Source: Hydrogenobacter sp. T-8 (GTDB taxonomy: Bacteria > Aquificota > Aquificia > Aquificales > Aquificaceae). Taken from it: a stretch of DNA of 64,000 bases. Of this stretch, positions 14,587 through 32,161 are shown one piece after another. The translations under genes and the position numbers were made by a program. The stretch covers positions 496,001 to 560,000 of the forward strand of contig NZ_CP048795.1 of NCBI RefSeq assembly GCF_011006175.1. The letters run 5' to 3'. The stretch's first letter is position 1. The number at the start of each line of letters is the position of its first letter. The notes beneath the pieces are model-generated. The model was not told where the DNA came from and did no database searches. It saw only the letters and a list, made by a program, of their open reading frames with translations.

Positions 14587-15247
14587 ACCCCTAAGGGAGC
14601 TTCCAGAGGACCTAAAGCCGAGGGAGAAGATGCTTAGGATAGGGGCGGAGAGCCTCACAGAGGAAGAACTGCTTGCCATTATCCTTGGCTCTGGCACCAA
14701 AGATATGGATGTTTTGAGCCTCTCAAGGGAGATAGTAAGCCTGGGCTGGCAAAGGCTCGGCAAAATGTCTCCGGAGGAGGTTGCAAGGAGCTTTAAGGGT
14801 ATAGGGGAGGCAAAGGCTTGCCAGATAAAGGCAATAATAGAGCTTGCCAAGAGGATAAACGACCCCTATGAGGGCATTTTCATAAACAACCCAGAGGACG
14901 CATACAGGTTTTTGAAAAACATGGTGGACGAAAGGAGGGAGCATCTTATTGCCCTATACCTTGCACCCACCAACAAGCCCATAGCCCACGAGATAATAGC
15001 CATAGGGAGGATGAATGTCCTGCACGCAGAGCCAAAGGATGTGCTCTACCATGCCATACACACCGCATGCCACTCCATACTCATAGCCCATAACCACCCA
15101 AAGGGTGAGCTAAAACCCTCAAGAGAAGATGTGGAGTTCACCCAGAGGCTAAGAGAGGCTTGTCAGCTCATGGGCTTTGAACTTCTTGACCACCTTATAA
15201 TAAACAAAAAGGGCTACATCTCTCTTAGAAGGGAGGGTTATATGTGA
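14573..15247 (+). CDS. radC: RadC/YeeS family JAB1-MPN protein
   Basis: 224 aa. N-terminal UPF0758 helix-hairpin-helix region (REKMLRIGAESLTEEELLAIILGSGT), then the metalloprotease-like JAMM domain with IAHNHPKGELKPSREDVEFT (HxHP-x-G-x(3)-P-S-x2-D). Molecular function remains unsettled; natural transformation and DNA repair roles have been suggested for the family. Its neighbour comF is a competence gene, overlapping by 4 bases (GTGA), which makes a DNA-uptake context attractive but unproven. Confidence 0.92.
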   Translation: MYQNRPLRELPEDLKPREKMLRIGAESLTEEELLAIILGSGTKDMDVLSLSREIVSLGWQRLGKMSPEEVARSFKGIGEAKACQIKAIIELAKRINDPYEGIFINNPEDAYRFLKNMVDERREHLIALYLAPTNKPIAHEIIAIGRMNVLHAEPKDVLYHAIHTACHSILIAHNHPKGELKPSREDVEFTQRLREACQLMGFELLDHLIINKKGYISLRREGYM

Positions 15248-15885
15248 TAGGGTTTTTACAAAGGCTTGGACTATCTTCAGAAAGATGTCTCCACTGTGGC
15301 AAGCCCTTTATAGGCAAGTCTCAGGGGCTTGTGTGCCATGTGTGCCTTGGTTCCATAAGTTCCTACCATCCCATGGATTACTCAGAGAGGATTGAATACG
15401 TGTTTTCCTACAGGGTCTTTGGTTTGTATGAGGGCCCTCTCAGAGAGGTCATCCATAGTGTAAAGTTTAGAAACTCCAAATCCCTTGCCCTCTCTTTGGG
15501 GCATATCATAAGAGGTCATCTATGGGAATACATACAGGAGCTTGAGCCAGACCTTATAACCTTCCCTCCGTTGAACCTCAGAAGGCTATGGAGTAGGGGT
15601 TTTAACCATATGGAGTATATACTCAAGGGGGCGGGCGTGCCATACATGGAGGTATTCAAAAGAATAGACTTCAGTCCTCCGCTCGCCAGGCTTGAGGCAG
15701 AAGAAAGGGAAAAGGCGGTCTTGGGCTATAGGCTAAGGGAGGAGTTTGTGGACTTCCTTGAGGGTAAGAGGGTTCTTGTGGTGGATGACCTTCTTACCAC
15801 TGGCTCCACCATAAGAAGGCTTGCATACCTGCTCATGTCCGCAGGAGCGGACGAAGTGCACGCTTACTTTGTGGCAAAGGCTTAG
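15244..15885 (+). CDS. comF: ComF-family phosphoribosyltransferase-like protein
   Basis: 213 aa. N-terminal zinc ribbon with CLHCGKPF (residues 15-18) and CHVC (~32-35), then a type I PRTase domain with PPLNLRRLWSRGFNHMEYI and the PRPP loop VLVVDDLLTTGSTIRR. ComF/GntX proteins act in DNA uptake and recombination. Translation starts from GTG overlapping the radC stop. The stop codon shares bases with the stop of the opposing HEPN remnant (TTAG at 15882-15885). Confidence 0.92.
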   Translation: MIGFLQRLGLSSERCLHCGKPFIGKSQGLVCHVCLGSISSYHPMDYSERIEYVFSYRVFGLYEGPLREVIHSVKFRNSKSLALSLGHIIRGHLWEYIQELEPDLITFPPLNLRRLWSRGFNHMEYILKGAGVPYMEVFKRIDFSPPLARLEAEEREKAVLGYRLREEFVDFLEGKRVLVVDDLLTTGSTIRRLAYLLMSAGADEVHAYFVAKA

Positions 15886-16070
15886 AAGAAGTTTTGTATG
15901 TTTTTTATAAATTCTTCAAGAACTCCTGTATAGATATCTTTTATCCTCTCAAACACTTTCCTGCTCTCTTTCTTCGCTGTATATAATATGAGATATAAGG
16001 TTTCTGTCTTCAAGCATGTCTAAAAATAGTTCCTCTTCTCCGAAAAAGCCTACTCTAAAAGCTGTTTTAA
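15882..16070 (-). pseudogene. Frameshifted 3' remnant of an HI0074/HepT-type HEPN toxin gene
   Basis: Reading on the minus strand from about 16070 gives KTAFRVGFFGEEELFLDMLE and DRNLISH, the core of the HI0074-type HEPN family. The frame then shifts by one base within the run near 15985 and continues as LYTAKKESRKVFERIKDIY and so on to a TAA at 15884-15882. The break falls between His and Tyr of the RX4HXY catalytic motif. Only the C-terminal ~60 residues of a ~130-aa protein remain; the N-terminal half is replaced by tnpB sequence in the same frame. Clearly non-functional as a HEPN protein. Confidence 0.7.
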
Positions 16071-16371
16071 TAGTTAAGTTAATGACTATTTGTCTAAATC
16101 TATTTGCGAGGTTAGAAGTCCAGCTTTCAAGGACTGATACCACTTGCCATAGGCATGTTTGTTTGTATCTCTCAGATAGTTTGCTTTGGATGTGCTTTAT
16201 ATCTGCGTATCTGTCAAACTTGGCTTCTGCAAAAAAGACAGACTATTGGTATTTTGCTATTATATGTGCGGTTTTTCTGTATTCTTTGAGGAGTGTAAGG
16301 AGTTTATTTTGTTTTCCCTTGTTAGCATATTGAGGATATTCTCCTACAGCTATTGGTTTATTTGTAGGCAT
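16071..16371 (-). pseudogene. 5' remnant of a TnpB-like gene with internal stop
   Basis: From ATG 16371 the minus strand reads MPTNKPIAVGEYPQ, then LLKEYRKTAHIIAKYQ, a TAG stop, SVFFAEAKFDRYADIKHIQS, KLSERYKQTCLWQ and VLESWTSNLANRFRQIV. Position by position this matches the N-terminus of the intact TnpB at 31 kb (LYRKTAQLVANFQW, LFFKTGSFSRKANIKHLNCP, LSERFKSTIQYHVV, LESFIANVQKRFK); the stop replaces a Trp codon (TGG to TAG). It ends abruptly at about 16070, fused in frame to the HEPN remnant. All RuvC motifs are missing. Together with the HEPN piece it fills the otherwise gene-free 15886-16457 stretch. Confidence 0.7.
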
Positions 16372-16457
16372 TGAGCATTACGCTCCCTTTGAAAAGTCTC
16401 CATACCTCCCTATAGCTTATGCCTAACTTCTATATTTGTCAAGAGATTTCTATTGTT

Positions 16458-17684
16458 TCAGTGATTAGTTTCCAATACCCTCTGCGTGAACTTCTCAAAT
16501 GCCCTCTTTATACCCCTTACCGCCTGCCTTATCCTATGTTCGTTTTCCACAAGAGCGAACCTCACATAGCCCTCGCCGTATTCACCAAAGCCTATGCCAG
16601 GAGATACCGCTACCTTAGCTTCTCTCAAAAGGAATAGGGAAAAGTCCAAGGAATTCATGCCCACCCAAGAGGGTATCCTTGCCCAGAGAAACATGCTCCC
16701 CTTTGGCTTATCCACCTGCCATCCTATGCGGTTTAACCCTTCTACCAACACATCCCTTCTTTTCCTGTAGACCTCCCTGTTTTTCTCCACTATTTCATAG
16801 GGGCTGTCAAGGGCTATTATGGAGGCAACTTGAATGGGGGTAAAAACACCATAGTCAAGGTAGCTCTTAAGGTGTGCAAGGTTCTTTATGAGCACCTCGT
16901 TTCCCACAAGGAAGGCAACCCGCCAGCCTGCCATAGAAAAGCCCTTTGACATGGAATAGAGCTCAACCGCCACCTCTTTTGCACCTTCTACCTGAAGTAT
17001 GCTGGGAGGTTCGTATCCGTCAAAGCCAAGGTCTGCATAGGCAAAGTCATGAATAAGCCAAACTTCTTCTCTTTTTGCCAACCCTACCACCTCTCTGAAA
17101 AAGTCAAGGCTTACGCAGAGGGTAGTGGGGTTGTGGGGAAAGCTAAGCACTATAGCCCTTGGTTTTCTAAAAGAGCCTCTAAGTGTGTCGTGAATTCTTC
17201 TTAAAAAGCTCTCTTCAAAATCCTCTCCCTCGTCAGGTATTATGGGAACAGATATGGCATCACCGCCTGCTATTATGGGTGCGTAGTAGTGTATGGGGTA
17301 GGTGGGGTTAGAAACGAGCACCGTATCGCCAGGCTCAAGCATGGCAAGCATAAGATGTGAGTAGCCCTCCTTTGCCCCTATGGTGAGTATGGCTTCCTTC
17401 TCTGGGTCAAGCTCCACGCCATACCTCCTACGATAAAAGTCGCATATGGCTTTTCTGAGTCTTGGAATACCCTTTGAGGCGGAATAGCCATGCACGTTGT
17501 CTCTTCTTGCTACCTCACAGAGCTTTTCCACTATGTGTGGAGCGGGTGGAAGGTCTGGGTTTCCCATACCAAGGTCCACAATGTCCTCTCCCTCGCGCCT
17601 TAGCTTATACTTTAGCTCGTTGACCATGGCAAAGACATACTTGGGAAGTCTGCTTACCCTTGGAAACATCCAGCTTTCACTCAT
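16458..17684 (-). CDS. alaC: AlaC-like class I/II aminotransferase (glutamate-pyruvate)
   Basis: PLP-dependent transaminase making alanine from pyruvate. 408 aa from ATG 17684. High similarity to E. coli AlaC as I recall its sequence: [54 protein letters not shown], and the PLP lysine in [13 protein letters not shown]. An ATG six codons upstream is possible, but 17684 has SD AAGGAGA and overlaps the dksA-like gene by only 8 bases. Paralogues in this fold include LL-diaminopimelate aminotransferase, so the substrate is likely but not certain. Confidence 0.88.
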
Positions 17685-18042
17685 GTTCTCCTTCCTCTTC
17701 AAGCTCTTTGCAATTTATACACATGGTGGTTACTGGTCTTGCCTTTAGCCTTTCAAAGGGTATAAGAGCTCCACAGCTCTCGCATATGCCGTAAGTGCCT
17801 TGCTCCATCTTCATAAGTGCATAGTCTATCTTACGCAGGAGCTTTAGCTCTCTGGTCTTTATCCTCTGTAGGCTTATATACCTTCCAGTCTCTATATTTG
17901 CCCTGTCTATTTCGTCACCACCCTCAAAGGAAACGTTTGAGGGGTCTCTTATTTGCTCTTCCGCATACTTTATTATCCTCTCCCTCATCCTTAGGAGGTC
18001 TTCCCTTAGCTCCGCTATCTGTTCTGGAGTTAGGTGATGCAT
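17677..18042 (-). CDS. DksA/TraR-family zinc-finger protein
   Basis: 121 aa from ATG 18042 (an in-frame ATG 11 codons upstream would overlap the divergent gene and the shared promoter). N-terminal coiled coil ([20 protein letters not shown]) and C-terminal C4 zinc finger CESCG...CINC. The DksA family binds the RNA polymerase secondary channel and modulates rRNA and amino-acid promoters with ppGpp. The coiled-coil tip Asp pair of E. coli DksA is not obvious, so it may be a DksA2/TraR-like variant. Upstream of alaC, overlapping it by 8 bases; probably one operon. Confidence 0.85.
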
Positions 18043-30052: not shown

Positions 30053-30190
30053 ATGAGTTCTGAAGATTTACTTCTTAAAGAGCTAAAGGAAGAGCTTCTT
30101 AGGGTTCTTTCAAAGCACCTTGAGTATCCCTTAGTATGGACAAATATCCCTTTTGTGGACATTTATCCACGCCTCGGGTTTAGGGACTGA
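30053..30190 (+). pseudogene. Probable 5' fragment of an MNT (HI0073/MntA-type) nucleotidyltransferase antitoxin gene
   Basis: ATG 30053 encodes MSSEDLLLKELKEELLRVLS KHLEYPLVW-type sequence: an N-terminal helix followed by a strand, as in HI0073-family proteins just before the 'VWAFGSR' motif. At Trp (30137-30139) similarity ends where GSX10DXD should begin, and the frame runs 16 unrelated residues to a TGA inside the TnpB element. The matching C-terminal piece reappears at 31688. Assignment is an inference from position and pattern; the fragment itself has no diagnostic motif. Confidence 0.45.
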
Positions 30191-31612
30191 TTGAAAGTAT
30201 GGATTTCTTTCAATCAATCCCAGTACCTTACTCCAGAGGCACTTAAACCGCTCACTAAACAAGTTTTTTATGAAAACCTCCACTTGCTTAGTGAGGGCTT
30301 GCTCCATACGGTGTAAATGCAAGCTCCACTTAGCACGGCTAAGTAGATTTCTGCTTGCATTCACATCCGCATGGAGCTTTCTATTGCATAGCTTACACTC
30401 AAACTCACTCCTTGTCTTCCTGTTGTCTTTGTCTACATACCCACAATTACTGCATGCTTGTGAACTATAGGCAGGAGCAACATACACCACCTCTATGCCA
30501 TATTCCTCTCTCACTTCCTCTAACTTCTTCTTTATCTCCCCAAGCCCAAACCTTATAAGCACCCTCTTTATAGCCTTTGGAAAATTGTTAATTACCCTCT
30601 TCAAAAATCCTCTTAAGTCCTCAAGCACAAGCCTTCGTGGTCTGTATAACTCTATAACCCTGTTTATTACCCTCCTTACCTCATTCTTCACATACTCACT
30701 TAGCCTGTGTTGAAGTCTTAAATACCTTCTGCTCTCTGTTGGCTTTTTTCCTCTCCTTTGCATCTCCCTTTGAATTCTGTCTATCTTATCCGCATATTCC
30801 CTGACCTTGCTGTAAAACTTCCTGCCAAAGAGGTCTCCTCTGTCTGAAACAAGAAAACACTCCATGCCAAAGTCAAGAGCTACCTCTCCACTGAAAGCTA
30901 TCTCCTTTCTCTCTATCTCCTTCACAAGCCTTAGTTTGCCATCCTCCGCTATCTGAACCATGCTTGTTAGCTTTCCACCTCTTTCCTCAAAATACTCATG
31001 AAGTTTCACAGGCAGATATATAGGCTTTCTCTTTTCATGAGTTGACAGTCTTATCCAGAGGTCAAAGGCTTTTGCTTTCTTTGGTCTTTCCAGCAAGGCA
31101 CACTTGCTGTCTAAAAGCATAGAGATACCTTTAAAACTTGGCTTTTTCCAGCTTTTGAGAATATGCTTGAATATCTTCTTAGCAAGCAGTCTTTCTTCCT
31201 TGACTATCTCATACTCATGCTTGTTTTTGTCTTTATCTATCCACAGGGCTTTCTCACTTTTTGGAATAAGCCATTCCTCTCTGGAGTTGAGATAAAGGAG
31301 AACTCTTTTTGTCTTTTCAGGAAGAGTAGAGCTAAGGACTATCTCTTTGAACCTTTTTTGGACATTGGCAATAAAACTTTCCAGTGTAGGGACTACCACA
31401 TGGTATTGTATAGTGGACTTGAACCTTTCTGAAAGTGGGCAGTTTAAGTGTTTTATGTTGGCTTTTCTGGAGAAAGAGCCAGTTTTGAAGAAAAGAAACC
31501 ACTGGAAGTTTGCCACAAGCTGTGCGGTTTTTCTGTATAGCTTTAGGACATGAGCTATAAGGGTTCTTTTTCTTTTTGTGGTAGGGCATGAGACTTCAAT
31601 AGCCCTATACAT
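30131..31612 (-). CDS. tnpB: TnpB RNA-guided nuclease (IS605 OrfB/IS1341-type), apparently intact
   Basis: 493 aa from ATG 31612 (frame open 21 codons further upstream without similarity). RuvC-like active site is complete: RuvC-I Asp247 in EVALDFGMECFLVSD, RuvC-II Glu331 in LVLEDLRG, RuvC-III Asp416 in ADVNASRN. The zinc finger is CSNCG...CKLC (Cys387, 390, 406, 409). TnpB proteins use an omega RNA from their own 3' end to cut target DNA and keep the element in place. It is longer than the common ~400 aa because of an extended N-terminal half. No tnpA is nearby. The coding frame runs over the 3' hairpin and ends, by TAA, in flanking sequence. Confidence 0.88.
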   Translation of the reverse strand: MYRAIEVSCPTTKRKRTLIAHVLKLYRKTAQLVANFQWFLFFKTGSFSRKANIKHLNCPLSERFKSTIQYHVVVPTLESFIANVQKRFKEIVLSSTLPEKTKRVLLYLNSREEWLIPKSEKALWIDKDKNKHEYEIVKEERLLAKKIFKHILKSWKKPSFKGISMLLDSKCALLERPKKAKAFDLWIRLSTHEKRKPIYLPVKLHEYFEERGGKLTSMVQIAEDGKLRLVKEIERKEIAFSGEVALDFGMECFLVSDRGDLFGRKFYSKVREYADKIDRIQREMQRRGKKPTESRRYLRLQHRLSEYVKNEVRRVINRVIELYRPRRLVLEDLRGFLKRVINNFPKAIKRVLIRFGLGEIKKKLEEVREEYGIEVVYVAPAYSSQACSNCGYVDKDNRKTRSEFECKLCNRKLHADVNASRNLLSRAKWSLHLHRMEQALTKQVEVFIKNLFSERFKCLWSKVLGLIERNPYFQSVPKPEAWINVHKRDICPY

Positions 31613-31687
31613 AGGGATATTATAGCTTTTGTCTGTGAGTTCGTATGTGAAACAATTCAAGAAACAAATTACCATTATTAGGTATAA
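30140..31687 (-). mobile_element. IS1341/IS605-group element carrying only tnpB, inserted in an MNT gene
   Basis: Limits are estimated, not seen: the left limit is where the MNT-like N-terminal fragment loses similarity (after 30139), the right limit where the MNT-like C-terminal fragment resumes (31688). In element orientation (minus strand) the left end is near 31687 and the right end near 30140, with the hairpin at 30183-30221 close to the right end. No terminal inverted repeats or target duplication are visible, as expected for this group. About 35 codons of the host gene are missing, so insertion was followed or accompanied by a deletion. Confidence 0.6.
30183..30221 (-). ncRNA. Right-end hairpin, candidate omega-RNA scaffold of the TnpB element
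   Basis: An imperfect palindrome with a 15-bp stem (30183-30197 against 30207-30221, one mismatch) and a 9-nt loop lies within the last codons of tnpB. IS605-group right ends carry such a subterminal hairpin, and omega RNAs overlap the 3' end of tnpB, with the guide read from the adjacent host DNA. If so, the guide would be the host sequence just below 30140 read on the minus strand. RNA boundaries are unknown. Confidence 0.5.
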
Positions 31688-31813
31688 ATGTCAATATTTT
31701 CAGAGACTATTCGCCAAGACCTTGTGGACTTTAACAAAACCTCAGAAGAGTTCAAAAGAGAAGCCCTAAAACACATAGAGGTCATTTATGAGCCAGAGAA
31801 GGATATTCATTGA
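31688..31813 (+). pseudogene. 3' fragment of an MNT nucleotidyltransferase antitoxin gene
   Basis: 41 codons reading MSIFSETIRQDLVDFNKTSE EFKREALKHIEVIYE-type sequence. The DLVDFNKTSEEF...IEVIYE block is characteristic of the C-terminus of HI0073/MntA proteins ('vDLvdl...seeFr...vvIye'). The N-terminal half with the catalytic GSX10DXD is absent: upstream in frame there is a stop codon and the TnpB element. It overlaps the HEPN start at 31788 by 26 bases, the usual MNT-HEPN coupling. Confidence 0.62.
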
Positions 31814-32161
31814 AAAGCTCGCAAAGGCTATAGAAAGGTTGGAAGAGGTGCTAAAGCTGGAAAAAACGCAGTGGTTAGAGATTCCGCCATACAGAGGTTT
31901 GAATTTACCTTTGACCTTGCGTGGAAAAGCCTTAAGTTATACCTTGAAGAGGTGGAAAGGCTTGAATGCAGGTCTCCAAAGGGATGCCTAAGGCTTGCCT
32001 TTTCTGTTGGTCTAATAGATAACGACTCCTATTGGCTTCAGATATGCGACTATAGAAACCTTACCTCCCAAACCTACGATGAAGAGTTAGCGGATAAAAT
32101 ATACGAAGAACTACCAAAGGTGTTAGAATACTTTAAAAGGCTTTACGGACTGATATCATGA
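31788..32161 (+). pseudogene. HI0074/HepT-type HEPN gene with -1 frameshift and mutated active site
   Basis: The first 29 codons (MSQRRIFIEKLAKAIERLEE VLKLEK) match the N-terminus of HI0074-type HEPN proteins. At the A6 run (31861-31866) the frame must shift by -1 to continue as VVRDSAIQRFEFTFDLAWKS, CLRLAFSVGLIDNDSYWLQI, YRNLTSQTYDEELADKIYEE, ending at 32161. Without the shift translation stops at 31991. The catalytic RX4HXY motif reads RNLTSQTY: His replaced by Gln. So the toxin looks dead twice over. Its stop overlaps the start of the next gene by 4 bases. Confidence 0.72.

Follow-up and report, generated by a model that had tools for sequence, protein, structure and literature searches.

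The window analysed here, a stretch of 64,000 nucleotides (G000:C1:496001-560000) from a closed 1.81-Mb genome that was searched piecewise, carries a tnpB-HEPN chimera in a gap between a comF-like gene ending at 15885 and an opposite-strand aminotransferase gene ending at 16458. The gap measures 572 bp, in good agreement with the gene-free stretch of 570 bp reported in the initial annotation. The chimera occupies 15882-16475 on the minus strand, where the left end of a tnpB element with the first ~100 codons of tnpB (16073-16475) abuts the final ~62 codons of a HEPN toxin gene (15882-16072). The features of this locus, hereafter the scar, are as follows.

15244-15885, plus strand: comF-like phosphoribosyltransferase gene flanking the scar on the right, syntenic in relatives
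15882-16072, minus strand: 3'-terminal ~62 codons of a PF08780 HEPN toxin gene, identified by Pfam and by alignment, with 90% DNA identity over 191 nt (E 1e-70) to the intact HEPN gene of the relative G013
16073-16371, minus strand: 5' part (~100 codons) of tnpB, with TAG at 16245-16243 for the parent's TGG and 90% DNA identity to the intact tnpB starting at G013:C1:1465418
16372-16475, minus strand: element left end (TTGGAAACTAATCACTGAAAC...) with a -35-like TTGACA at 16442, common to the G013 copy, where the flanking DNA is unrelated
16458-17702, minus strand: aminotransferase gene, left-hand neighbour of the scar, its C-terminus altered (RVLETNH) by the insertion

The two halves of the chimera and their damage

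The minus-strand translation of the scar reads MPTNKPIAVGEYPQYANKGKQNKLLTLLKEYRKTAHIIAKYQ, a stop, SVFFAEAK...NRFRQIV and then, directly in frame, INLTIKTAFRVGFFGEEELFLDMLEDRNLISHIIYSEEREQESV followed by a stop. Homology of the tnpB part to the TnpB at 31 kb in the same window, proposed in the initial annotation, was borne out (44% amino acid identity over 80 aa, 67 bits, E 5e-19, against 24.6 bits for the best of 200 shuffles), although the two belong to different subfamilies. The closer parent is the intact 478-aa TnpB of G013 (91% amino acid identity), which has the PF07282 domain (E 3e-16), whereas the fragment lacks that part. The reported change of TGG to TAG is also present: the parent has NQWSIFF and the fragment YQ-stop-SVFF, the TAG being codon 43. 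Identity to the G013 copy runs upstream of tnpB up to 16475. Since both copies carry (GTA)TTRGAAACTAATCACTGAAAC... from this point on and the DNA preceding it is unrelated, 16475 is the left end of the element. Thus the extent given earlier, 15882-16371, was right on the HEPN side and too short on the element side, since it left out the transposon left end (16372-16475). Another 5' fragment of this subfamily, also decayed, lies at G000:957585-957827.

The in-frame fusion to the 3' half of a HEPN gene was likewise confirmed, albeit the 64-aa HEPN ORF scores below the curated cut-off of PF08780 (E 1.9e-5) because it is short. The G013 HEPN (RNLISHIYSEEESRKVF) reads RNLISH-I-Y-SEEESRKVF, whereas the window (RNLISHIIYSEE) reads RNLISH-I-I-Y-SEE and then changes to the +1 frame. 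RNLISH itself is therefore retained, and what lies between His and Tyr is an in-frame insertion of 3 nt (region 15987-15982), not the frameshift that had been placed there; the single-base +1 frameshift follows only after the Tyr codon (15981-15979), at about 15969-15957. With its 5' half missing, its His-Tyr spacing changed and its frame shifted, the scar HEPN no longer has the RX4HXY arrangement of a complete HEPN, which its G013 ortholog retains. The adjacent MNT gene is absent at the scar and intact at the G013 ortholog (PF18765 E 2e-18). No working protein is expected from the scar.

The ancestral interval and the origin of the scar

The comF and aminotransferase genes are convergent and syntenic throughout the genus. 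In G013, the interval between them contains an intact pair of MNT (103 aa) and HEPN (129 aa, PF08780 E 1e-27) genes with short overlaps, and it is this pair to which the scar shows 90% identity. In G010 the pair is decayed and no element is present: MNT lacks a normal start, and HEPN is frameshifted and reads RNLASR in place of the RNLISH of G013, an Arg replacing the catalytic His (L060:3568-3762). The interval is 68 bp in G003 and 2-11 bp in eight other members of the genus. The simplest reading of these sequences is that the pair entered one clade and decayed by separate routes, remaining intact in G013, rotting without an element in G010, being largely lost in G003 and being hit by an element in G000. 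Like the MNT-HEPN (MntA-HepT) modules (PMC7641770), the ancestral locus consists of two overlapping genes, a nucleotidyltransferase followed by a HEPN with RX4HXY. Unlike them, the HEPN here is of the PF08780 (HI0074) branch, and at the scar nothing of MNT is left and only a damaged 3' half of HEPN.

Comparison with G013 places both junctions. After GAGGGTA, G013 continues with TGAAATAC, which includes the ATG start codon of MNT, whereas G000 continues with the element left end; the insertion thereby supplies the last codons of the aminotransferase and replaces its stop (RV-stop in G013, RVLETNH-stop in the window). The right junction, at 16073/16072, passes from ...CATTAACTTAAC of tnpB to TATTAAAACAGC... 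of HEPN, the two sides having no more than 1-2 bp in common. Measured against G013, about 480 bp of MNT-HEPN has been lost and, measured against the parent element, about 1.1 kb of the element, so the deletion amounts to ~1.6 kb. The parents, the ancestral locus, both insertion points and the damage can thus be read directly, and the history of the scar can be followed down to single bases, since the genus still preserves the interval in intact, decayed and empty form.

We consider the scar, with a probability of about 0.92, to be a transposition relic in which a tnpB element inserted into an ancestral MNT-HEPN pair, a deletion then fused tnpB to HEPN, and point decay followed. The ancestor of the clade would have had an MNT-HEPN toxin-antitoxin pair between the convergent aminotransferase and comF genes, and an IS607-like tnpB element would have inserted just behind GGGTA, at the start codon of MNT. 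Subsequently, a near-blunt deletion of ~1.6 kb would have joined tnpB codon ~100 to HEPN codon ~67, so that the remainder of tnpB, the element's right end, the whole of MNT and the first half of HEPN were lost. The change of TGG to TAG and the gains of 3 nt and 1 nt would have come afterwards. The order of insertion and deletion, like the mechanism of the deletion, is what we infer, and a single one-ended event would look similar.

Two other origins can be weighed against this history. It is very improbable that the chimera functions as a fused gene or a regulatory RNA: the tnpB/HEPN junction is in frame and the promoter-like TTGACA of the element is retained, but the stop at codon 43 and the +1 frameshift in HEPN led us to reject a functional fusion protein, and with the right end the guide-RNA-bearing part has been deleted, so that the sequence contradicts this reading. 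Just as little credit can be given to an assembly or sequencing artefact, for which no supporting point was found: the genome is closed in a single contig, each half differs by ~10% from its parent, and the modification of the aminotransferase end is consistent. Toxin-antitoxin loci decay through insertion sequences by insertion, adjacent deletion and point decay. The scar is the same in kind, and the only notable point is that one element family has hit MNT genes repeatedly. The scar is therefore a real, well-explained pseudogene chimera of an ordinary kind, and the pattern surrounding it is moderately interesting.

The 31-kb locus and the element family

The window contains a second MNT-HEPN pair broken by a tnpB element, with the following features.

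30053-30121, plus strand: 5' remnant (MSSEDLLLKELKEELLRVLSKHL) of another MNT antitoxin gene, which the 31-kb element interrupts, with intact orthologs in G013 (L245) and G010 (L246)
30122-31720, minus strand: 31-kb tnpB element, IS607-like and of another subfamily than the fragment, with the TnpB ORF at 30131-31675 (PF07282 E 4e-18)
31721-31808, plus strand: 3' remnant (LVDFNKTSEEFKREALKHIEVIYEPEKDIH) of this MNT gene, which has lost ~159 bp of its core next to the element's left end, between two GACCT repeats
31788-32161, plus strand: HEPN gene of this pair, frameshifted, with RNLTSQ for the RNLTSH of G013, G010 and G003

The element, one of several full copies in G000, splits MNT after SKHL, immediately ahead of a DLS stretch. 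The uninterrupted order pdhA-MNT-HEPN-kinase in G013 and G010 represents the empty site of this insertion, and the G003 ortholog of the MNT gene is masked by a run of N. As judged from sequence, the 31-kb and scar insertions are independent, because the element subfamilies, the MNT-HEPN paralogs and the relative orientation all differ. The earlier proposal that TnpB elements and MNT-HEPN modules came together twice, independently, in one window thus holds, with orthologous intact loci available for both. Within the 5' end of this MNT gene, 31 bp (window 30083-30113) recur with ~90% identity upstream of two other MNT-HEPN pairs, at G000:246449-246479 and G013:573117-573147.

Both subfamilies resemble the IS607 family (serine TnpA plus TnpB; PMC6188088, PMC10711439) in having a TnpB with a Cas12f1-like TNB domain and, in relatives, an IS607-type serine TnpA beside tnpB. 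At G012:C7, a tnpB of the 31-kb subfamily adjoins a resolvase-type TnpA with a helix-turn-helix (PF00239 E 3e-17), and at G006:292848 a tnpB of the fragment's subfamily is immediately preceded by an IS607-type TnpA; a search for such a TnpA in the window's own genome gave no match. IS607 elements are expected to cross over at a 2-bp identity, typically a GG core (PMC6188088, PMC10711439). When a 31-kb-subfamily copy, G013:1664, was compared with its uninterrupted ortholog at G000:453 kb, the flanks aligned separately and overlapped by exactly TC, which demonstrates at this one site, by sequence alignment, a 2-bp crossover without target duplication. The core of the fragment subfamily is probably TA or AT, and full and mini copies have RGTC or GTC at the left end. 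Because the core is TC instead of the typical GG, we call the elements IS607-like.

A mini-element of ~298 bp, without tnpB, has the same ends as the 31-kb element and a promoter-like TTGACA-TATATT near its left end. Its six copies, in three genomes, are 91-97% identical (L247:1443-1740, which is G000:343942-344238 on the minus strand; L242:1305-1601; L234:1343-1640; L233:1132-1428; L232:1102-1399; G003:C42:21931-22222). The RNA is computed to be strongly structured (233 nt, -105.8 kcal/mol, z -9.2); it has no Rfam match, and an Rfam search of the element RNAs gave nothing credible. Its 3' part shows weak similarity to the 3' end of full elements, so the mini-element may be a guide-RNA-only derivative. 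The plasmid collection was also searched, and no match was obtained. Elsewhere in G000, copies of the 31-kb element lie at the extreme end of the hicA toxin gene of a hicBA pair (L048, G000:1585289-1586890) and directly after a gene with a cas6-like end, as judged by eye (L052, G000:31515-32960).

Association of the elements with MNT-HEPN modules

About six of some 34 sites inventoried in the genus are in MNT-HEPN modules, against a uniform expectation of 0.15; the number of independent events is slightly lower, because among the other sites at least two (G000:31 and G013:1316) seem to be orthologs of each other. Apart from the two window cases, these are as follows.

G000:1562: MNT cut after SESKEDLSK and lacking its 3' end, with no HEPN left
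G012:C7: MNT split at EEDIDK/DLSYL and HEPN split by TGA
G013:1664: element at the 5' end of HEPN, separating it from MNT
G003:C99: MNT cut at the SDV motif, the contig ending inside the element

The excess has a P of 0.004 if 10% of the genome tolerates insertion and of 0.08 if 5% does, and it is somewhat inflated, because the genome share of MNT-HEPN (0.45%) and the site contexts are hand estimates and because models were used in the search for MNT/HEPN remnants only. For TnpB in general, three of 45 on 12 long contigs lie within 300 bp of HEPN/MNT (0.39 expected; P 0.0125 by permutation), and two of these three belong to the IS607-like family described here; PIN domains, taken as a control, gave 1 against 0.17 expected. 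As only three of 45 TnpB are so placed, we rejected a generic TnpB-HEPN association. The suggestion that TnpB elements persist near MNT-HEPN loci therefore stands for this genus and element family and is weak for TnpB generally. A wider survey of 80 named loci with local MNT/HEPN models yielded nothing beyond a contig of QZM4_1.bins.16, which is the G012 contig already counted, and we found no paper on IS607 elements in MNT-HEPN genes.

This excess, far above uniform chance, is nevertheless compatible with the survival of insertions only in dispensable DNA. It seems unlikely that the elements actively prefer MNT-HEPN genes, by RNA guidance or by target choice of the transposase. Beyond the count itself, such a preference would agree with the antisense orientation to MNT-HEPN of all four full 31-kb-subfamily tnpB copies at MNT/HEPN sites, with the position of the three readable targets at antisense Asp-Leu codons (GAC-CT or GAC-TT), and with an AAGGTC density 2.2-fold higher in MNT-HEPN genes than in the window. 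However, RGTC density is near background (14.0 per kb in MNT-HEPN vs 12.8), the excess is not significant under 5% tolerance, and the guide-side flanks have nothing in common between sites. The initial annotation had raised the idea that TnpB elements target such loci; because these flanks differ at all MNT/HEPN sites, and the sites follow a short (R)GTC core that occurs everywhere, targeting by RNA guidance is not supported. RNA-guided homing between MNT paralogs was rejected as well, the right-end flanks sharing no sequence. An insertion bias of the genus's IS607-like TnpB elements towards MNT through antisense RGTC targets at Asp-Leu codons is similarly doubtful; if true, the elements would repeatedly act as switches inactivating toxin-antitoxin modules, with disarmed toxins left behind.

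Chance combined with purifying selection is the probable cause of the clustering: only insertions into dispensable DNA would survive, and broken toxin-antitoxin genes would make up a large part of that DNA. This competes with active preference and not with the transposition origin of the scar, with which it is compatible. Nearly all the other sites are intergenic or at gene ends, the G010 toxin at the comF locus died without an element, and the excess for TnpB in general is weak. On the other hand, MNT-HEPN modules account for six of roughly eight gene-breaking insertions, other dispensable genes being rarely hit (contexts by eye). Selection as the reason is again inferred: insertions of the IS607-like family are probably retained at MNT-HEPN modules because these become dispensable once the toxin is harmless.

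The state of the toxins bears on this point. HEPN could be assessed at four hit loci, and all are damaged: both window cases in the active site, G012:C7 by a stop and G013:1664 by a cut at its 5' end. At a fifth, G000:1562, none is left, and G003:C99 was outside the assessment. Among 21 element-free MNT-HEPN loci, for which mainly complete pairs had been selected, RX4HXY is kept in 20 and replaced by KNEVVHIY in one, and two HEPN genes are split. MntA neutralises HepT by adenylylation (PMC7641770). Toxin damage at the hit loci fits the notion that loss of the antitoxin gene is possible only after the toxin has become harmless, although the order is not proved thereby. Because the G010 toxin died at the same locus without an element, toxin death may have come first and merely permitted insertion. 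The view that dead toxins are what such events leave behind is thus consistent with the assessable loci, none of which has an undamaged HEPN, but the G010 toxin shows that an element is not needed. The scar and the other MNT-HEPN hits form a set in which it can be tested whether toxins must die before an element destroys the antitoxin, and whether one transposon family repeatedly lands in toxin-antitoxin genes. Separately, a TnpB of a different kind lies beside a HEPN remnant with two stops in G018 (L105, G018:634784-635508).
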